Assembly (NCBI GenBank): GCA_902603555.1
Contig: CACKVD010000003.1
Span: 1 to 64,000, forward strand
Origin: an uncultured Pelagibacteraceae bacterium
Lineage (GTDB): Bacteria; Pseudomonadota; Alphaproteobacteria; Pelagibacterales; Pelagibacteraceae
Direction of reading: 5' to 3'
Length of the DNA: 64,000 nt
Shown here: positions 21,367 through 53,407 of the stretch, one piece after another
How the letters are laid out: each line of letters opens with the position of its first letter
Position numbering within the stretch: the stretch's first letter is position 1
Translations under genes and position numbers: made by a program
Notes under the pieces: model-generated
Databases searched by the model: none
Seen by the model: only the letters and a program-made list of their open reading frames with translations
Told to the model about the DNA's origin: nothing

Positions 21367-21684
21367 TTACTGCCCTGGTGCTTTATAACCAATTTTACTA
21401 GCTTTTGCTGTAGCTTTACCAAAGTCAATTGCTTCCAAGATTGTTAAATTATCAACTGCTCCTGAAGCTTCTACTACTAATTTGATAGCAGCAAAATCAT
21501 CAAAACTTGGTACATCTGTTACAACTATAAAATCATAAGAACCTCTTACTATATCCATGCTGTGCATAGTGCCACCCATTGCTTCAGTAAGTTGTTTTAC
21601 AATAGCTTTTCTATCACTTGATGGATCTTTAAGAAATCCTTGAAAAGCTTTTGCAGTGTAATTACCCATTATGTATGCTTTCAT
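21367..21684 (-). CDS. GYD domain protein
   Basis: RGSYDFIVVTDVPSFDDFAAIKLVVEASGAV matches GYD family pattern. Confidence 0.85.
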   Translation of the reverse strand: MKAYIMGNYTAKAFQGFLKDPSSDRKAIVKQLTEAMGGTMHSMDIVRGSYDFIVVTDVPSFDDFAAIKLVVEASGAVDNLTILEAIDFGKATAKASKIGYKAPGQ

Positions 21685-25702: not shown

Positions 25703-26506
25703 GTGCAAATTTTAAAATCATCAGATTATAAACTTTATTCTAAATTCATTGAAAATTTAGCTAAGAAATTAACTAGATTTTATTACTCTAAATTAAACAA
25801 ACCCTTTAAAGTATCGAATAAACTTAGAAGTGGTTATGACCCCGTGACAACTGCGGATAAGGCTTTTGAACGATTCATCAGAAATGAGATTAAAAAAAAG
25901 TTTCCAAGTCACCAAATTATAGGTGAAGAATTTGGTTATAAAAAAACTAAAAGTGATTATTCATGGGTTATTGATCCTATCGATGGAACTCGATCATTTG
26001 TGATAGGAAATCCAACTTGGAGCAACTTAATATCTTTAAATTATAAAGGTAATCCAGTCGTAGGTCTTGCAAATTTTCCAATTCTTAAAAAGTTTTATTT
26101 TAATACTTCTTATAATTCCGCGTATGTTTCAGAAAATGGAAAGAAAAAGAAAATACTTGTTAACCAGAAAGCAACTTATTCTAAAATGAAATTAACTGCA
26201 GCTTTTCACGGCAGCCTGTCATTAAATAAACAAAAAAAAATTCCTCAAATTTTGAGAAGGATGCAATTTCCCTGCTCGGATGCTTTAAGTTATTCTCATT
26301 TTGCTGAGGGCAAACTTGATGTTGTTATTCAATGTGGAAACAAAATTTGGGATATTCATGCTTTAATACCAATTATTGAGGCTGCAAAAGGGATTGTCTC
26401 GACTTGGAAAAATTATGATGCTAAGAAAGCTGGAAATATTATTTGCTCAGCTAATAATAGTTTACATAAAAAAATGCTTAAAATTTTAAAACCAGTTTCT
26501 AGCTAG
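25703..26506 (+). CDS. hisN: Inositol monophosphatase family / histidinol-phosphatase-like
   Basis: DPVTTADKAFERFIRNEIKKKFPSHQIIGEEFG, WVIDPIDGTRSFVIG, KIWDIHALIPIIEAAKG. Confidence 0.82.
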   Translation: MQILKSSDYKLYSKFIENLAKKLTRFYYSKLNKPFKVSNKLRSGYDPVTTADKAFERFIRNEIKKKFPSHQIIGEEFGYKKTKSDYSWVIDPIDGTRSFVIGNPTWSNLISLNYKGNPVVGLANFPILKKFYFNTSYNSAYVSENGKKKKILVNQKATYSKMKLTAAFHGSLSLNKQKKIPQILRRMQFPCSDALSYSHFAEGKLDVVIQCGNKIWDIHALIPIIEAAKGIVSTWKNYDAKKAGNIICSANNSLHKKMLKILKPVSS

Positions 26507-26834
26507 TTTTACCCAAGGTATTTAAAAGAATTACACCAATAATTATTAAACTAATTCCAATAATCCCATAAAGATTTGGAATTTGCTGATATTTAAAAAC
26601 ACCAAACAGTGTTACTGCTGTTATGGTTAAACCTCCATATGTCGCGTATGTAAAACCAACTGGGATAATATTCATTGCTTTAGATAAACAAAAAATACAA
26701 GCAACTATAGATATGATACAAAAAATAGTTGGTCCAATTATTGTGAATCCATTAGTAGATTTTAAAAAACCATTTGAAGTTATTCCTAGAATGATCGCTA
26801 AAGCCAAAAAGATATAACCAGATAAATTTACCAT
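26499..26834 (-). CDS. SMR-like small transporter subunit (1)
   Basis: Four TM segments, SNGFLKSTNGFT and IPVGFTYATYGG align with EmrE layout. Confidence 0.8.
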   Translation of the reverse strand: MVNLSGYIFLALAIILGITSNGFLKSTNGFTIIGPTIFCIISIVACIFCLSKAMNIIPVGFTYATYGGLTITAVTLFGVFKYQQIPNLYGIIGISLIIIGVILLNTLGKTS

Positions 26835-26837
26835 AAA

Positions 26838-27173
26838 TTATCCTGTTTTACCCAGCAGATTAACAATTAAGACTCCTGATATAATTAATATCAAACCAAC
26901 GATTGTGAATAGATCAGGCACTTGATTGAATTTATATATTCCAACAATTGAAGTCGCTACTATGCATAAACCGGCAAAAGATGCATAGGTAATACCAACA
27001 GGTATAGTTTTCATCACTATTGAAAGAGTAAACATGCAGCCAATTATTGTAATCGCAGTAATTAGACTAGGAACTAACAATGTGAAACCATTTGCACTTT
27101 TTGCAAAACTATTTGCTGCAGTTCCTAATATGACAGCAAGTATAAGAATTAAAAAAGCTATAACGTTACTCAC
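26838..27173 (-). CDS. SMR-like small transporter subunit (2)
   Basis: Four TM segments, ANSFAKSANGFT and IPVGITYASFAG; tandem paralog of the neighbouring ORF. Confidence 0.8.
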   Translation of the reverse strand: MSNVIAFLILILAVILGTAANSFAKSANGFTLLVPSLITAITIIGCMFTLSIVMKTIPVGITYASFAGLCIVATSIVGIYKFNQVPDLFTIVGLILIISGVLIVNLLGKTG

Positions 27174-27188
27174 AAATAAAAGATATTC

Positions 27189-27452
27189 TTATTTGGTAAT
27201 TTTATCTACCAATTTTTTAATCGGGGGACCTACAAGAAGAGCAGCAATTATTGCAATTGGAAGACTTATTGACCATGCTTTAAAAAAACGGTCGACATAC
27301 TCATTGTCCATTCCAGTGTTTATATAGGTAATTATTAGTGTCATTAAAAGACTCATCCCAAATCCCATAACTAATATAAATAAAAGATTAGAATATTTTT
27401 TTGGAAACATTTTAAATACTTTGTTTTTGTAATTGAAGGTGTAGTTTTTCAA
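27189..27452 (-). CDS. DUF2798-like small membrane protein
   Basis: Two TM segments, NLLFILVMGFGMSLLMTLIITYINTG and IAIIAALLVGPPIKKLVDKI; start may be internal. Confidence 0.65.
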   Translation of the reverse strand: MKNYTFNYKNKVFKMFPKKYSNLLFILVMGFGMSLLMTLIITYINTGMDNEYVDRFFKAWSISLPIAIIAALLVGPPIKKLVDKITK

Positions 27453-27963
27453 TCATGATTAAAGGGGACTTCATAAATGGATGAACTTTATGAGCTTGAA
27501 TATAGCTATCAATAGCTTTTTGGTAATTTTTTAAAGCAGTTTGAACCAATCCTTGTCCTGATAAAGCACCAAAATGTCTTTCTTCAATATCAAGCACTCT
27601 GTCAATATCAGCTTGAGACAATTCATATTTGCCCATTAAATATAAAACTGTAGCTCTTTTATTCCATGCTTCAGCCCAATTTGGATCCATTTCTATTACT
27701 TCAGTAAATTTATTGTAAGCAGTTTCAAGTTTATTATCCATCATAGCAGATGACCCATCTGCTAACAATTTTGTTAAATTGTTTTTAGACGGATGGGTTG
27801 TCCAAAGATTCCAAATTTTGTCTTCAATTTTTTTTGAGTTTTCGAAATTTAGTGCACTTTTTAATTGTATAAATAATTTATCGATTTCTTTTTGGTGATT
27901 ATCATCAGCGAATATCGATGATGAAAATATAAAATATAAGAAAATAAACGAAACTTTTTTCAC
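27412..27963 (-). CDS. Exported TPR-repeat protein
   Basis: Signal peptide, AEAWNKRATVLYLMGKYELSQADIDRVLDIEERHFGALSGQGLVQTALKNYQKAIDSY. Confidence 0.82.
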   Translation of the reverse strand: MKKVSFIFLYFIFSSSIFADDNHQKEIDKLFIQLKSALNFENSKKIEDKIWNLWTTHPSKNNLTKLLADGSSAMMDNKLETAYNKFTEVIEMDPNWAEAWNKRATVLYLMGKYELSQADIDRVLDIEERHFGALSGQGLVQTALKNYQKAIDSYIQAHKVHPFMKSPLIMIEKLHLQLQKQSI

Positions 27964-28284
27964 TTATTTAGATATAGGAGTAGCGCCAGTTTCTAAACTA
28001 ACAATTTTTCCATCTTTATATCTATAAACAGCCATTACAGCTTCAACATTTCCATCATTAAATGTAACTAGTGAATGGTGTACGCCCACCTCATCATTTT
28101 CATAAACAACTCTTGCTTTATCCTGATTAATATCACCACTCATCGCCCATTTAATAACATCAGCTTTTCCTAAAGAATTTCCAGATTTGTGCATTATAAA
28201 CTTAAAATCATCATGTAAAAGTTCATTCATTGTTGCTTCATCTTTCTTATCAATTGCATCAGTATATCTTTTTAATATAGACAT
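27964..28284 (-). CDS. NTF2/SnoaL-like protein
   Basis: MSILKRYTDAIDKKDEATMNELLHDDFKFIMH...YRYKDGKIVSLETG. Confidence 0.72.
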   Translation of the reverse strand: MSILKRYTDAIDKKDEATMNELLHDDFKFIMHKSGNSLGKADVIKWAMSGDINQDKARVVYENDEVGVHHSLVTFNDGNVEAVMAVYRYKDGKIVSLETGATPISK

Positions 28285-28349
28285 TTATTCCCCTTAATTG
28301 TTAAAGATCACTCTCATTTGTTAATTTTAATTTATCAGAACCTAAACCT

Positions 28350-28664
28350 TTAGTGTTTAATATATGCATCTGGATAGTTAGTAAGATACTCATCTGAAAT
28401 TGGTATCATTGAAGCACTTTCTATAACAGCTCCAGCTTCCCTTCTTTTCTCAGTAAGTTGTTTATCATCCCTAAATGCTTGTAGTGCTTCCATGTTTGGA
28501 AATTGCATTACTGTATGAAGTTTTGATGGATCATCTTTTTGTGTGCCCGCAAAAATAAACTTTATTCCATGTTCTTTTAATTTTCCATCCTGAGCATAAA
28601 CCATCTCTTTCCACGTTTTAAATCCTTTAGTAATTGTAATTTCACCTTTAACTAATATTCCCAT
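28350..28664 (-). CDS. Small DUF1330/ABM-like dimeric alpha-beta barrel protein
   Basis: KLHTVMQFPNMEALQAFRDDKQLTEKRREAGA pattern. Confidence 0.62.
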   Translation of the reverse strand: MGILVKGEITITKGFKTWKEMVYAQDGKLKEHGIKFIFAGTQKDDPSKLHTVMQFPNMEALQAFRDDKQLTEKRREAGAVIESASMIPISDEYLTNYPDAYIKH

Positions 28665-28681
28665 ACGAACCTCCTTAATCG

Positions 28682-29098
28682 TTAAATATAAATTTTATCA
28701 GCTAAACCGTAACAAAGTACAGCACTTAAAATAGTTAAAAATAGCGGAGCATATATCGCTTCATCAGAAGTTTTGTCTGTATGACCAAGTTTATTTATTT
28801 TTATATTATAAAAACCAACTATAAAAGCTGACAAGTTCTGTAAAAATATAAGATTAAAGAATCCCCATGTTGCCTCTAAACCATTAGGTCTTATGAAGCC
28901 CACATAAATAGCCATAGCTACCGAACCAAAAAATATTGATCCAAAAAACCTAACCATTCCTGCACCAGTATCATCAATACCATACTGATCTAAAAAGGAC
29001 TTAGTTTGGAAAACACATCTAAATCCATAAAAAGCAAATCCTATAAAATGAATTATAAAAACTGCTAAATAAAATATTCCATTAAATTGTTCTATCAT
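28682..29098 (-). CDS. Uncharacterised integral membrane protein (138 aa)
   Basis: Four predicted hydrophobic helices; no family recognised. Confidence 0.7.
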   Translation of the reverse strand: MIEQFNGIFYLAVFIIHFIGFAFYGFRCVFQTKSFLDQYGIDDTGAGMVRFFGSIFFGSVAMAIYVGFIRPNGLEATWGFFNLIFLQNLSAFIVGFYNIKINKLGHTDKTSDEAIYAPLFLTILSAVLCYGLADKIYI

Positions 29099-29110
29099 AT
29101 TTAAAATTCC

Positions 29111-29419
29111 TTAACTAAATATTGGTCTAATCTCATCTTCAATAGTACCCTCTATTGCAACTTCTTTCAGTTGCTCTAAAAGTTTTATATATTCAGGATC
29201 TGCAGACATTTTGGCGTCAGCATCATTATCACCTTCAAACATAGTTCCAATTAAAGTTTCTCTTATTGTTCTTGGGTCCCCACCCATTTGAAAAGAAAAA
29301 TAGACATCATGGTTAGGATAATGTTTTTTTCTAACTGCTGCTAAACCTTTTCCAATTTCCATAGCTTTTCCTAGGCCGTCATCTTTTACTCTCATTGTTC
29401 TAGTATAAATTACTTTCAT
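29111..29419 (-). CDS. Uncharacterised ABM-like small protein
   Basis: MKVIYTRTMRVKDDGLGKAMEIGKGLAAVRKKHYPNHDVYFSFQMGGDP; SD present. Confidence 0.62.
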   Translation of the reverse strand: MKVIYTRTMRVKDDGLGKAMEIGKGLAAVRKKHYPNHDVYFSFQMGGDPRTIRETLIGTMFEGDNDADAKMSADPEYIKLLEQLKEVAIEGTIEDEIRPIFS

Positions 29420-29430
29420 TGTTACTCCTT

Positions 29431-29721
29431 TTATTTAGCATTAAAATCTATAATATTATCTGTACACTCAACAAATTTATGAGGTTCATAGAAATCGTTC
29501 ATAGATTCCAATTGTTTATTTATTGCATCAGGATCAGTTCCTTTCCACCAACAAAACATTGTTAAATTATCACCTGGTGTGATCCAGCTCATTTGACATT
29601 TTGCATTATCACTTGTCATTGCTTTAGTCATATCTTCCATTGACATTGAACCAGTAACTTCAATCATTTTAGCTTTTGCTTCTTTTGATTTAAAAGTATG
29701 TGTTACTATATAGTTTTTCAT
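29431..29721 (-). CDS. Uncharacterised ABM-like small protein
   Basis: MKNYIVTHTFKSKEAKAKMIE...MSWITPGDNLTMFCWWKGTDPDAINKQLES; SD present. Confidence 0.62.
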   Translation of the reverse strand: MKNYIVTHTFKSKEAKAKMIEVTGSMSMEDMTKAMTSDNAKCQMSWITPGDNLTMFCWWKGTDPDAINKQLESMNDFYEPHKFVECTDNIIDFNAK

Positions 29722-29734
29722 ATTTCTCCTTTGA

Positions 29735-30115
29735 TTAATATATTCCTGACTCTGCTATTTTTTTGATTTCATCTTTAGATCCAGAAATTAATTTAAAAAT
29801 AAATTCATCACATTTTTTTGTTGTTTCTTCTTCATATGGTTTACCGTAACGAATATCGACAACTTTTAATAATTCTTCGTTAAGTTTTTCTTTCTTAACA
29901 CCTTCCTTTAACAAATAAGAATTTAAAAACTTTTTGGCTGCGAAAGAGTGAACAATCTTTTCTAATTCAAGCTCTCCCTGGGGTATCATGCTATTAGCAT
30001 AATAAATTCCAGTACATTCTATTGTTTTCTCTTTATCTGCTTTGCTTAAATGACCATCAGCAAATGCAGAAAATGTAAAAAATACTAATGATAAAGTAAA
30101 AATTGTTCTTTTCAT
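29735..30115 (-). CDS. Exported small protein, paralog A
   Basis: Signal peptide; C-x-GIYYANxxxPxGE ... YGxxY...KC motif shared with 30118..30489. Confidence 0.68.
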   Translation of the reverse strand: MKRTIFTLSLVFFTFSAFADGHLSKADKEKTIECTGIYYANSMIPQGELELEKIVHSFAAKKFLNSYLLKEGVKKEKLNEELLKVVDIRYGKPYEEETTKKCDEFIFKLISGSKDEIKKIAESGIY

Positions 30116-30117
30116 AT

Positions 30118-30489
30118 TTAATATAAAGTTTGAATTACTTTTTTGACTCTTTCAGCTCCGTTAGGGATTAAAGCTTCAACAAACGAATGACATTTATCAG
30201 TTTTAGATTTATCATATTTTGATCCATAATGTTTATCTACTGCCTTATTAACTCCTTCATCCCAATCTTTTTCAGGAATACCCATTTCAAGAGCATAAGT
30301 TTTTAATACTTTTACAGTTGATATAGATTTTTCTTTCATGGCGTATTCAAATGTTTCACCAGAGGGAAGAAAGTAGTTAGCCATATAAATACCAGCACAA
30401 TCCCAAGCTTTAGCTTTATCACCCTCACTCATCCCTGCATTAGCAGAAGTGAAAATAAAAAAAGATAAAAATAAAATAATTTTTTTCAT
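30118..30489 (-). CDS. Exported small protein, paralog B
   Basis: Signal peptide; C-x-GIYMANxxxPxGE ... YGxxY...KC motif shared with 29735..30115. Confidence 0.68.
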   Translation of the reverse strand: MKKIILFLSFFIFTSANAGMSEGDKAKAWDCAGIYMANYFLPSGETFEYAMKEKSISTVKVLKTYALEMGIPEKDWDEGVNKAVDKHYGSKYDKSKTDKCHSFVEALIPNGAERVKKVIQTLY

Positions 30490-30542: not shown

Positions 30543-30562
30543 ATGTAACTGTTTTGTTACAT
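30543..30562 (-). terminator. Intrinsic terminator of the cysE-cysK unit
   Basis: Minus strand ATGTAAC-aaaaca-GTTACAT followed by a T run. Confidence 0.55.
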
Positions 30563-30577
30563 AGCTGGTATGCGATA

Positions 30578-31579
30578 TTATAGCCAGCTAGGGAAAGGTA
30601 GTTTTTTTTCTTTTAAAAAAGATTTGTTAAACATCTTTGAGTTGTATTTATCTGATTTATCACAAAGAATTGTAACAATTGTTTTTCCTGGGCCTAATTC
30701 TTTTCCAAGCCTAATAGCACCAGCAATATTTATTCCACAACTTGTTCCTAAACTTAAACCCTCGTTTTGTATTAGGTCATAAAGAATAGGTAAGGCCTCA
30801 TGATCATCAATTGAGAAAGCATCATCAATTTTTGCATTTTCAAAATTTTTTGTAATTCTACTTGATCCAATACCTTCTGTGATTGAACCTCCTTCAGATT
30901 TTAATTCACCATTCTTAATATAATTGTAAAGAGCAGAACCTTTTGGATCAGATAAATAGATCTTTATATCTTTATTCTTTTCTTTAAGAGCATTACTAAC
31001 TCCTGAAATTGTTCCACCTGTTCCTGATGAGCAAACAAATCCGTCTACTTTACCTTCAGTTTGTTCCCAAATTTCTTTACCTGTTCCCTCATAGTGTCCT
31101 TTTGCGTTAGCTGTGTTATCAAATTGATTAGCCCAGACAACTCCATTGTTGTTAGAAGGTCTTAATTCATCAGCAAGTCTTGCAGCAACCTTTACATAAT
31201 TACCATCATCTTTATATGGTTTAGCTGGAACCAGTCTTAACTCTGCACCAAGGTTTCTTAAAGCATCTTTCTTTTCTTGAGTTTGATTATCATTCATTAC
31301 TATAATAGTTTTATAACCAAGTGAATTACCTAATAGACCTAATCCAATACCAGTATTACCTGCCGTTCCCTCAACAACAATCCCACCTTTTGAAATTAAT
31401 TTTTTTTCTTGAGCATCTTTAATTAAAGCTAAAGCAGCCCTATCTTTGACCGAACCACCTGGATTTAAAAACTCTGCTTTACCATAAATATTGCACCCAG
31501 TTATTTCTGAGGCTGCTTTTAGTTTTATAAGAGGAGTATTACCTATAGATTCAATAAAATTATTTCTTATATTTTGCAT
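30578..31579 (-). CDS. cysK: Cysteine synthase family protein
   Basis: IESIGNTPLIKLK, FLNPGGSVKDRAAL PLP lysine, EGTAGNTGIGLG, SGTGGTISG. Confidence 0.9.
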   Translation of the reverse strand: MQNIRNNFIESIGNTPLIKLKAASEITGCNIYGKAEFLNPGGSVKDRAALALIKDAQEKKLISKGGIVVEGTAGNTGIGLGLLGNSLGYKTIIVMNDNQTQEKKDALRNLGAELRLVPAKPYKDDGNYVKVAARLADELRPSNNNGVVWANQFDNTANAKGHYEGTGKEIWEQTEGKVDGFVCSSGTGGTISGVSNALKEKNKDIKIYLSDPKGSALYNYIKNGELKSEGGSITEGIGSSRITKNFENAKIDDAFSIDDHEALPILYDLIQNEGLSLGTSCGINIAGAIRLGKELGPGKTIVTILCDKSDKYNSKMFNKSFLKEKKLPFPSWL

Positions 31580-32148
31580 TATTTTTTATCTTCGTCTGTT
31601 ACAGCATAAGGTTTAAATCCTTTTGTAGCATCTCCAACTTTTTTGGCTGGGATACCTGCCATCACAGATTTTTCATGTACATTTTTTGTTACAACTGAGT
31701 TAGAACCAATTAAAGAATTTTTCCCTATCGTAATTGGACCTAATATTTGAGCACCTGATCCAATAACAACATTGTCCTCTAAAGTTGGGTGTCTTTTCAT
31801 ATTTCTCTGATCATCAGAGTTTATACTTGGAGCAATTCCTCCCAAAGTTACATTATGATAAATAGTTACATTGTTTCCGATTTCAGATGTTTCACCAATC
31901 ACTACGCCCATACCGTGATCTATAAAAAAATTTTTTCCAATTTTTGCTTTTGGATGAATCTCAATACCAGTTAAAAATCTTGAAAACTGAGAAATTATTC
32001 TTGCAACTAAATCAAATTTTGCGACAGCAAAAAAATTAGCAATTTTATAAAAAAAAATCGCTTTTACACCAGGATAAGTCAATATTAAACTTAACTTAGA
32101 TTTTGCCGCAGGATCTCTGTCAATTATAGATTGTAAATATTCATTCAT
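31579..32148 (-). CDS. cysE: Serine O-acetyltransferase
   Basis: RDPAAKSKLSLILTYPGVKAI, GIEIHPKAKIG, DHGMGVVIGETSEIG hexapeptide repeats; start set to MNEYLQSI. Confidence 0.93.
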   Translation of the reverse strand: MNEYLQSIIDRDPAAKSKLSLILTYPGVKAIFFYKIANFFAVAKFDLVARIISQFSRFLTGIEIHPKAKIGKNFFIDHGMGVVIGETSEIGNNVTIYHNVTLGGIAPSINSDDQRNMKRHPTLEDNVVIGSGAQILGPITIGKNSLIGSNSVVTKNVHEKSVMAGIPAKKVGDATKGFKPYAVTDEDKK

Positions 32149-32221
32149 AAAATTTGTACGCTTGATATAAAAATTCGCTTGAGTTATATAGTCTTTATAT
32201 TCAGATTTTAAAGGAGAAATT

Positions 32222-32632
32222 ATGTACAAAAATACTAATTGTTTTCATCTAGCAATACCATGTGGTGATTTAGAAATAGCAAAAAAGTTTTATAGCGAAA
32301 CTTTGGGCTGTCGACTTGATAACTCTGCTCAAGAATGGGCTGATGTTGATTTTTGGGGAAATGAATTAACTCTTCATGCAAGTGAACATAAACTTGATAA
32401 TGAAAGACACGATGTTGATATGGGAAATGTATCTGTACCTCATTTTGGAGTACACCTTTCTAGAAAAGATTTTGATACATTAAAAAATAGACTTAAGAAA
32501 AATGGTCACAAGTATTATGATGAACCATATTTAAGATTTAAAGGCACTAAATACGAACAAGAAACATTTTTTATTAAAGATCCAAATGAAAACGTATTAG
32601 AGATAAAGACTTTAACTGCTAATTCAGAATAA
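32222..32632 (+). CDS. Glyoxalase/VOC-family protein
   Basis: FHLAIPCGDLEIAKKFYSETLGCRL, FIKDPNENVLEIK. Confidence 0.88.
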   Translation: MYKNTNCFHLAIPCGDLEIAKKFYSETLGCRLDNSAQEWADVDFWGNELTLHASEHKLDNERHDVDMGNVSVPHFGVHLSRKDFDTLKNRLKKNGHKYYDEPYLRFKGTKYEQETFFIKDPNENVLEIKTLTANSE

Positions 32633-50031: not shown

Positions 50032-51390
50032 TTAGCCTTTTACAACTTCTCTTGTATTAGCATTGAAAGACTCTTTAAATGGTATATCCACTACTACAGC
50101 ATCTACAGGTTCACCTGCTTTATCTGAGTATTTCTCAGGCAAATGAATTTTATATTTAGTTCCAACTTTTCCTTTTGGAAATCCGTTTGAGTTCAGAGTT
50201 CCATCAAATGGCACATATCCCATTGCTATATTTGTTTTTTTTTCAGGATGGTACCAAGGTGATGTAATAAAACCTATTGGATCCCCACCATCAGCTCCTG
50301 AAATTAACCAAAAATCAGGTGCATAATCTTCAATTGGTTTTCCCCCTAATTCAAGACCGACTAACTGAAGTTTATATGGTTTTTTACCCTCTTTGAGCTC
50401 TTTACCCATTTTTTCTAAAGCAGCTTTACCAACATAATCAGCTTTTTTATTCCATTCTCCTTTACCCGAAAGTGAAACCTGATAACCTAAATTACATTGA
50501 AAAGGATTATGCTGTTGATCCATGTCCTGACCCCATGAAAGAATTCCAGCTTGAATTCTTCTATGGTGCGCTGGAGCAATAACCATAAGTTGATGTTTTT
50601 TTCCAGCTTCAAGAACTGCATTCCACATATCTTCCGCATATAGAGTAGCATTTCTTAAATAAATTTCATACCCAGCTTCACCTGAGAAACCAGATTGAGA
50701 TATAACACAGCTTCTTCCCCCAACTTTTACTTCTGCTAAACCATAAAAAGGCATGTTATCAAAATCAACTTGATCTCCACATAAATCTTTCATTAAAGCT
50801 TTTGATTTAGGTCCTTGTATTTGCACAGGACACGCATCAATTTCTTCAACTGTACAATTAAATCTTCCATCAGCATTAACACCTTGAAGATACATACCTA
50901 TATCCGAGTCTGATAAAGAAAACCAAAACTCATCTTTTGAAATTCTTAAAAGAATTGGATCATTTAAAACTCCACCATAAGTATTACATAAAATTACATA
51001 TCTAGCTCTCATAGGGGAAATTTTAGTTGCATCTCTTGTTATTACATAATCTGTGAATTTTTCTGCATCTGGACCTTTAACTCTTATTTGTCTTTCAACA
51101 GCAACGTTCCACATTGTAACATGATTGACAATAGCATCATATTCTACCATTGCTCCACCGTCTTCAGGTTTTACATAACCTCTTGGATGATAAATACGAT
51201 TGTAAACAGTTGCTCTCCAACAACCAGCTTGCATTGATAAATGCCAATAAGGTGACTTTCTTACCCTTGTTGAAATTAACATCTCAACCTTTGTTGGCCC
51301 ACTTTGTCTTAAATTATATGGTACTTCTCGATCTGATTGATCAACTGAAGTAACATGTTTTAGTTTAGTATAGTCAAATTCTTTAGACAT
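50032..51390 (-). CDS. GcvT/DmdA-like aminomethyltransferase-family protein
   Basis: VERQIRVKGPDAEKFTDYVITRDA, SDSDIGMYLQGV, QSGFSGEAGYEIYL, GxxRRIQAGILSWGQDM; start placed at the second Met of MVMSKEF. Confidence 0.88.
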   Translation of the reverse strand: MSKEFDYTKLKHVTSVDQSDREVPYNLRQSGPTKVEMLISTRVRKSPYWHLSMQAGCWRATVYNRIYHPRGYVKPEDGGAMVEYDAIVNHVTMWNVAVERQIRVKGPDAEKFTDYVITRDATKISPMRARYVILCNTYGGVLNDPILLRISKDEFWFSLSDSDIGMYLQGVNADGRFNCTVEEIDACPVQIQGPKSKALMKDLCGDQVDFDNMPFYGLAEVKVGGRSCVISQSGFSGEAGYEIYLRNATLYAEDMWNAVLEAGKKHQLMVIAPAHHRRIQAGILSWGQDMDQQHNPFQCNLGYQVSLSGKGEWNKKADYVGKAALEKMGKELKEGKKPYKLQLVGLELGGKPIEDYAPDFWLISGADGGDPIGFITSPWYHPEKKTNIAMGYVPFDGTLNSNGFPKGKVGTKYKIHLPEKYSDKAGEPVDAVVVDIPFKESFNANTREVVKG

Positions 51391-52111
51391 AACCATTCTC
51401 CTTCAACCACTTGTTAGTTTCCTTCAAGCCGCCGAATGTATAAATGTGGAAGAAATCAGTATGCGATTTAACTTTCCCAATTAAATCATTAGGGTCTTTA
51501 GGTTTTAATAAATCTAACGCCTTACTAAAATTAGACTTAAGAAAATTAATGGAATTTTTTGCTCCAACAATATTAGCAAATTTAATTAAGCTAGATATTT
51601 TTAGAGGCCCAGTAATTCCCACATGCACTGGTATGCTTTGTTTAGATATAAAATCTATAATAGGCTGGGGATCCAGTAACCATTGAGTTACTATATAATC
51701 AGCATAAGGCTTTTTATCTATCATAGCTTTTTCTAAATCTGAGTCGGATATATCAGGACTCCCCTCAGGGTGTCCAGCAATTCCTATTATCATCTTCTCA
51801 AAATAACCAGTCTCTAAAAGTTGAAACGAGCTATCAAATTTTCCAACTGGCTCTCTACCGCCGCCAATGATTAAGACTTGTTTTACACCCCCGTCTTTAC
51901 ATCTAGAGACATAATCTTTAAGCTCTTCTTCATTATGCATTGATCTTGCAGGAAAATGAGGGACAGGGTTAAAACCTTTTTTAACAAGTTCAATAGCTTT
52001 TTGAGCTGTTTCTTTATAATCTCCACCAGGTAACATAGTTATATACACATCATTTACTGGTGGTACCGTTTCTAGATCTGTATTAGGCCCAATTTCTAAC
52101 GAAAATTTCAT
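51383..52111 (-). CDS. Methylenetetrahydrofolate reductase-like (MetF family)
   Basis: FSLEIGPNTDLETVPPVNDVYITMLPG, VPHFPARSMHNEEELKDYV, IIGIAGHPEGSP; start reset to MKFSLE. Confidence 0.85.
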   Translation of the reverse strand: MKFSLEIGPNTDLETVPPVNDVYITMLPGGDYKETAQKAIELVKKGFNPVPHFPARSMHNEEELKDYVSRCKDGGVKQVLIIGGGREPVGKFDSSFQLLETGYFEKMIIGIAGHPEGSPDISDSDLEKAMIDKKPYADYIVTQWLLDPQPIIDFISKQSIPVHVGITGPLKISSLIKFANIVGAKNSINFLKSNFSKALDLLKPKDPNDLIGKVKSHTDFFHIYTFGGLKETNKWLKENGYV

Positions 52112-52198
52112 TTTCAGATCATTATCTTTTTTGAAAAAGCTGTCAAAGAAATTCAACAATTGACCCCCAACTGATAATTGTTGCCAAAAACGGTGCTC

Positions 52199-53407
52199 AT
52201 GATAATTTTTTTTGTGGACCAAAATTACAAAAATAAAAACCTATCTGAAATCCTAGATATTGAAAAAATAGAGGCTGTTAAGAAGTCAATAGAGATAGCA
52301 AATGGCCTTCCAAATGAATGCTACACGAGTGAGGACTATTTAATTTATGAAAAAAAGAGAATTTTTTGGGATAAATGGACAGTCGTTGGAGTTGGAAGTT
52401 CGATACCAAACCCAGGAGATGCCAAGCCATACAATTTATTGGGGATTCCCTTAATTTTAATTAGAGGGAAAGATATGCGGATCCGAGTTTTTCACAACGT
52501 TTGTAGTCACAGAGGATTTAAACTTTTGGACAAAACCTGTAATTTAAAAAATGTAATCAGATGTCCTTATCATTCTTGGTCATACGACTTTGAAGGAAAT
52601 TTAGTCGCAACACCTCATATTGGTGGACTAAACAAACACCACTCAGAAAAATTTGATAAAATCAAAAGTAATTTAAAAGAGGTTAAAACTAAAGTTTGGA
52701 TGGATATCATTTTTATAAATATTAATTCTAATGAAATTGAATTTGATGAATACATAAAACCTCTTGAACAAAGATGGTCAAAATTCATTAATAAAAATGA
52801 TCAAGAATTGATAGTGCATTCTAACGACTATGGTTATTTTAATTTAGATGTAAATTGTAATTGGAAATTTGCTATAGAAAATTATTGTGAAAGTTATCAT
52901 CTGCCAACTATTCATCCTGAATTAAATAAAGTTTCTAACATTAATGATCATTATCATATCCAAGGTTTACCGAACAGATTTGCTGGACAAGGAAGTAAAA
53001 AATATGAACAACCTGTTAAAGGAAATAAAAAATTTAATACTTTTCCAAACTGGGAAAAAAATATGTTAAAAAATTCTGAATACATCGCGTTATTTCCTAA
53101 TGTAATGATTGGTCTACATGTTGATCATTTTTATGTTTTTTGGTTAGAGCCACTTACCGTAAGTAAAACAAAAGAACATATGCAGATGTATTATGTTGGA
53201 AATCATAGTGCTAATGGAGAAGAGTTAAAAGATTTAAGAAAAGAAAACGCAAGGTTTTGGAAAGACGTTATGTCAGAGGATGTTAATGCAATTGAAGGAA
53301 TGCAAGGGGGAAGAAGCTCTCCAGTTTATAATGGGGGAAATTTTTCACCTGTAATGGATCAACCAACACACCAATTTCATAAGTGGGTAGCTAATAGTTT
53401 AATGTAA
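52199..53407 (+). CDS. Rieske-type aromatic-ring-hydroxylating-like oxygenase alpha subunit
   Basis: Rieske motif CSHRGFKLLDKTCNLKNVIRCPYHSW; mononuclear iron region NWKFAIENYCESYHLPTIHPEL. Confidence 0.92.
   Translation: MIIFFVDQNYKNKNLSEILDIEKIEAVKKSIEIANGLPNECYTSEDYLIYEKKRIFWDKWTVVGVGSSIPNPGDAKPYNLLGIPLILIRGKDMRIRVFHNVCSHRGFKLLDKTCNLKNVIRCPYHSWSYDFEGNLVATPHIGGLNKHHSEKFDKIKSNLKEVKTKVWMDIIFININSNEIEFDEYIKPLEQRWSKFINKNDQELIVHSNDYGYFNLDVNCNWKFAIENYCESYHLPTIHPELNKVSNINDHYHIQGLPNRFAGQGSKKYEQPVKGNKKFNTFPNWEKNMLKNSEYIALFPNVMIGLHVDHFYVFWLEPLTVSKTKEHMQMYYVGNHSANGEELKDLRKENARFWKDVMSEDVNAIEGMQGGRSSPVYNGGNFSPVMDQPTHQFHKWVANSLM

Follow-up and report, generated by a model that had tools for sequence, protein, structure and literature searches.

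The locus lies in a window of 64,000 nucleotides, the whole stretch of DNA analysed here, from a SAR11 (Pelagibacter-like) genome of 938 kb, which is 72% complete and divided into 37 contigs and was assigned to SAR11 by its Pelagibacteraceae relatives; SAR11 are the commonest bacteria of the sea. All nine ORFs of the initial annotation were found at positions 27189-30489, and its description of one strand, tight spacing and SD-like sequences was borne out, with intergenic gaps of 0-65 bp, mostly shorter than 20 bp, and AAGGAG/GGAG motifs preceding most of the nine starts. One directon comprises cysE and cysK, the nine genes that lie downstream of them, and then an SMR transporter pair (Table 1). 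The median dN/dS against relatives was 0.04-0.21 across the nine genes, as compared with 0.063 for the neighbouring cysK, and we therefore regard them as maintained proteins; this purifying selection, together with their recurrence across relatives, shows that they are not chance ORFs.

Table 1. Features of the locus, listed from the cysK side to the SMR side
Feature	Positions	Strand	Description	Basis
cysK + cysE	30578..32229	-	upstream boundary	boundary in the 38-locus sample
Leader	30543..30573	-	GCATACCAG + dyad ATGTAAC-AAAACA-GTTACAT, then T-run	conserved at the cysK/array junction
P9	30118..30489	-	EXP family; exported 5-helix protein, two invariant Cys	AlphaFold2, relatives
P8	29735..30115	-	exported, paralog of P9	36% identity to P9
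P7	29431..29721	-	BAR7 family; weakly SCO4226-like ferredoxin-fold barrel protein	weak PF14026 match
P6	29111..29419	-	BAR6; conserved protein, barrel fold unconfirmed	median dN/dS 0.043
P5	28682..29098	-	TM5 family; 4-TM protein	AlphaFold2 pLDDT 92
P4	28350..28664	-	DUF3764 protein	Pfam PF12594
P3	27964..28284	-	SnoaL/NTF2-like protein	Pfam SnoaL_2
P2	27412..27963	-	exported TPR protein	Pfam TPR_1 above cut-off
P1	27189..27410	-	DUF2798 membrane protein	Pfam DUF2798; probable ATG start 27410
SMR transporter pair	26499..27173	-	downstream boundary	Pfam Multi_Drug_Res at 26499-26834; boundary in 34/38 loci

Most of the protein assignments made earlier also held. The DUF2798-like, NTF2-like and TPR proteins (P1, P3 and P2) all exceeded their Pfam cut-offs, P1 with 73.6 bits (cut-off 23.5) and P3, a SnoaL_2/DUF4440 protein, with 34.9 bits (cut-off 27 for SnoaL_2). 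The start of P1 is most likely the ATG (73 aa) and not the TTG at 27452, because its relatives begin at that ATG, and this choice abolishes the overlap between P1 and P2. As for the three barrel proteins that had been proposed, P4 passed the DUF3764 cut-off (29.9 against 24 bits), P7 is only weakly SCO4226-like (15.7 against 28.5 bits for PF14026, a family matched weakly by 11 of 12 P7 relatives, best E 3e-4), and P6, with neither a Pfam family nor an hhalign match to DUF1330 or DUF3764, may be a barrel, judging by its apparent strand/helix pattern only. Among the P4, P6 and P7-type profiles, the sole hint given by hhalign connected P4 with DUF1330.

No reliable Pfam match was obtained for P5, P6, P8 or P9. 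The predicted 4-TM protein, P5, was modelled as a four-helix membrane bundle, and the exported paralogs, P8 and P9, were likewise upheld, the P9 model having a pLDDT of 88 that is low just at the signal peptide. Neither the P5 nor the P9 model found a fold match in the PDB, and a MAPEG-like fold for P5 was rejected, the fold matches being at chance level only; the P5 and P8/P9 families represent high-confidence folds without a solved relative. Relatives of P9 occur in 78 of 197 genomes of the order, the P7 family in 75 and the P5 family in 141, in the last case often outside arrays or alone, and in a phylum-wide sample P7 relatives were found in the window genome only. Two adjacent P5-family genes were also seen in an alphaproteobacterium outside the order (locus L162, 8617-9474, minus strand). 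Another exported family, EXP35 (locus L034, 9555-10043), carries a repeated G-rich motif that by eye recalls allene-oxide-cyclase-like barrels, with no Pfam match.

A changing row of genes between cysK and the SMR pair

In 40 loci, each covering up to 18 kb around a P9 relative, a changing row of small genes occupied the interval that separates cysK from the SMR genes. A sample avoiding the bias of searching by array genes was drawn from the genus by cysK alone (n = 38 loci of sufficient length); 35 of these possessed a pool array, the far end of which was formed by SMR in 34 cases and by DUF952 in one. The 38 loci displayed 32 distinct gene orders, and 245 of their 264 genes lay on the cysK strand, some of the opposite-strand genes belonging to the three loci that have no array. 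The larger set, biased by being chosen through array genes, comprised 109 complete arrays of 2-12 genes each, in 71 orders. The site accordingly has the character of a flexible genomic island, i.e., variable content at one conserved chromosomal position.

The pool of genes is limited to about 15-20 small families, as assigned by a custom ORF caller and BLAST clustering with which single small genes may be missed. It includes DUF1330, DUF3764, GYD, ABM and SCO4226-like barrels, SnoaL/NTF2 proteins, cupins, small exported proteins, the 4-TM protein and DsbA-like proteins, and tautomerase, glyoxalase and DsbA-like members are present in the arrays of other strains. The commonest in the cysK-picked loci were the P3 family (29), DUF1330 (23), ABM7 (22), the P8/P9 family (19) and P5 (18). 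No gene is obligatory, content and order differ between close relatives, and membership is loose because P5 so often stands alone. A solitary GYD-domain gene was noticed elsewhere in the window (21367-21684, minus strand, 65.9 bits), GYD being a family found inside the arrays of other strains. Three arrays (L178, L208 and L216) contain a glutathione-reductase-like gene and a Pfam-checked ABM protein between cysK and SMR, and that of L208 additionally an enolase-superfamily-like gene.

The alleles of the array genes fall into deeply split classes, which are swapped independently of the flanks. In strains with flanks 97% identical to those of the window, P5, P6 and P7 are at about 56, 61 and 65%, respectively, whereas P6 is at 99% in strains with flanks near 81% identical. 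Recombination between conserved flanks would be expected to leave such a mismatch between alleles and flanks.

The leader behind cysK

Between cysK and the first array gene, whichever gene comes first, a leader is kept, with the consensus GCATA-N-C-(A/T)-G, after which come a dyad of the TGTAAY-AAAA type and a T-run. Its 9-mer, for which 2.1 chance matches are expected per whole 64 kb window, recurs in many gaps holding an oppositely oriented P5 as well as in the array leaders of a sister genus. At the innermost pair of the dyad, 58 of 87 distinct leaders have C-G, 14 have T-A and 10 have T-G, which favours an RNA hairpin, either terminator or attenuator; part of the dyad belongs to the pattern by which the leaders were picked, so that the conservation of its left arm is to some extent built in. 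The hairpin could be the terminator of cysK, and the dyad might also act as an operator. Since the single-sequence folding energy of the hairpin was not significant, the case for conservation of the leader rests on comparison. Rfam gave no match in the region. The full composite was found in just 3 of 99 genomes of the family, once each, and hence we claim no leader regulon.

Recurrence at other sites and proposed role

These families also form clusters elsewhere on the chromosome, in sets that overlap. In the sister genus, beside unrelated genes, GYD, ABM31, P5, P7, ABM7, DUF1330 and P8/P9 types stand together; another family of the Pelagibacterales has clusters of GYD-ABM-SnoaL-P7-DUF3764 or GYD-ABM-SnoaL-cupin-P7; and outside the order, one alphaproteobacterium combines DUF6854, a cupin, an unassigned protein, a second cupin, GYD and P7, and another has an adjacent DUF3764/NTF2-like pair. 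In the clusters of the other Pelagibacterales family, three of four neighbours were labelled as pool members by BLAST; with pool genes at a background rate of 1.8%, the probability of this is about 2e-5. The fourth was assigned by Pfam, and the three-of-four figure was used for that reason. A Fisher test on the window array was set aside as circular, the pool being defined from such arrays. Because overlapping sets recur in this manner, we take the association of the families to be selected and not just local clutter. Independent scattering of the genes, which the initial annotation had named as an outcome that would tell against a system, was seen in part, in that P5 wanders, while all the P7 loci inspected lay in clusters alongside further members of the pool.

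The nine genes are, we hold with high confidence, one state of a modular, selected array that occupies one fixed site, and not a fixed nine-gene pathway. The earlier idea of a candidate undescribed system survives to the extent that the cluster is real and that we found no description of the array in the literature searched; as a set of nine it does not, given 32 orders in 38 loci. Pool genes are gained, lost, reordered and swapped by allele, probably through recombination between the conserved flanks, and the array would probably be co-transcribed from the cysK side behind the conserved leader.

ABM, SnoaL, cupin and tautomerase folds are known to bind or isomerise small organic molecules. 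Most of the assigned products are small stand-alone proteins, i.e., ferredoxin-like barrels, NTF2/SnoaL proteins and cupins, accompanied by small exported and membrane proteins. Each gene product most likely deals with one particular small metabolite or reactive compound, and the subset that a strain carries may be its kit for detoxifying or salvaging dissolved organic compounds, a reading suggested by the small-molecule folds, the exported and membrane proteins and the adjoining SMR exporter. We propose such a role in small-molecule handling tentatively. The small-molecule modification, detoxification or sensing pathway suggested at the outset agrees with it as regards the families, and fails as a single fixed pathway, no gene being obligatory. 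For the explanation as a whole, an operon-like, modular island that occupies a fixed SAR11 site and encodes small ligand-handling proteins, we estimate a probability of about 0.45. More doubtful, and yet possible, is a combinatorial metabolic expression site, in which the leader behind cysK would drive the strain's own subset of single-domain ligand-handling proteins; if true, SAR11 populations would tune their handling of organic compounds gene by gene despite streamlined genomes.

The chief rival to the detoxification or salvage kit is the accumulation of useful but functionally unrelated small genes at a recombination-prone site, the clustering merely reflecting tolerance of insertions behind cysK. 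We consider it a serious possibility, though less likely than not, in view of the extreme variability of array content, the entry of larger genes too (glutathione reductase-like, 2-hydroxyacid oxidase-like and enolase-superfamily-like, as read from sequence) and the finding of P5 and of single DUF1330 or EXP54 genes elsewhere. It is opposed, however, by the clustering of the same families at unrelated sites in other genera and families, and by the rarity by chance of the pool neighbours described above.

A metal, heme or redox-stress unit is unlikely. SCO4226-like, cupin, cupredoxin, DsbA-like and glyoxalase members would, on that account, handle metals or oxidants; some arrays do have cupredoxin and DsbA-like members, SCO4226 (PF14026) itself is a nickel-binding protein (PMC4186839), and in strain HTCC1062 the DUF952 gene SAR11_0785, which adjoins the site, was up 1.5-fold under iron limitation (PMC2864753). 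However, the SCO4226 match of P7 falls below the family cut-off, cupredoxin is missing from most arrays and occurs in just 7 of the 38 loci, and SAR11_0785 belongs to the flank of the site and not to the array itself.

A mobile or defence element (integron-like cassettes, phage cargo or an anti-phage island), to which the cassette-like variable content at a fixed site might point, is highly improbable, and we rejected each of its forms: a known anti-phage system, since PADLOC gave a generic TPR match alone (E 0.006); phage or plasmid cargo, as no relatives were found of P7 or P8/P9 in IMG/VR, of P6 in the phages of INPHARED or of P4 in the plasmids of PLSDB; and an integron, the gaps leaving almost no room for attC sites and no integrase being recognised by inspection among the neighbouring ORFs of the window.

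A limited pool of tiny genes at a single site, selected and yet dealt differently to each strain, offers a direct handle on niche differences at the strain level. Separately, an aminomethyltransferase-like gene was observed beside a methylenetetrahydrofolate-reductase-like gene in the window (50032-52222, minus strand), possibly a DMSP demethylation pair as read from the sequence only.

Comparison with known systems

Relatives of P7 resemble SCO4226 through a weak profile match. With integron gene cassettes, the array shares short one-gene units, a mostly single strand and variable order, but it differs from them in the lack of attC-sized gaps and of a recognised integrase and in being kept genus-wide at one site. 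In HTCC1062, the equivalent site is at about SAR11_0785-0791, running from SAR11_0785 (DUF952) and SAR11_0786 (qacH, an SMR gene) on to SAR11_0791; it was placed by the DUF952 and qacH neighbours and lies outside HVR1-4, the gene lists of which are elsewhere. SAR11_0788 is recorded as a protein of no known function without a strong Sargasso Sea homolog, and neither this record nor that of SAR11_0785 shows a role of the array. The array also resembles the hypervariable regions HVR1-4 of SAR11 (PMC2217521) and replacement flexible genomic islands (PMC4033161), in both of which variable gene content is likewise held between conserved flanks at a fixed site. In contrast to these, the array draws on a limited pool, keeps to one strand with tight spacing and a conserved leader, and consists of sets that recur elsewhere.
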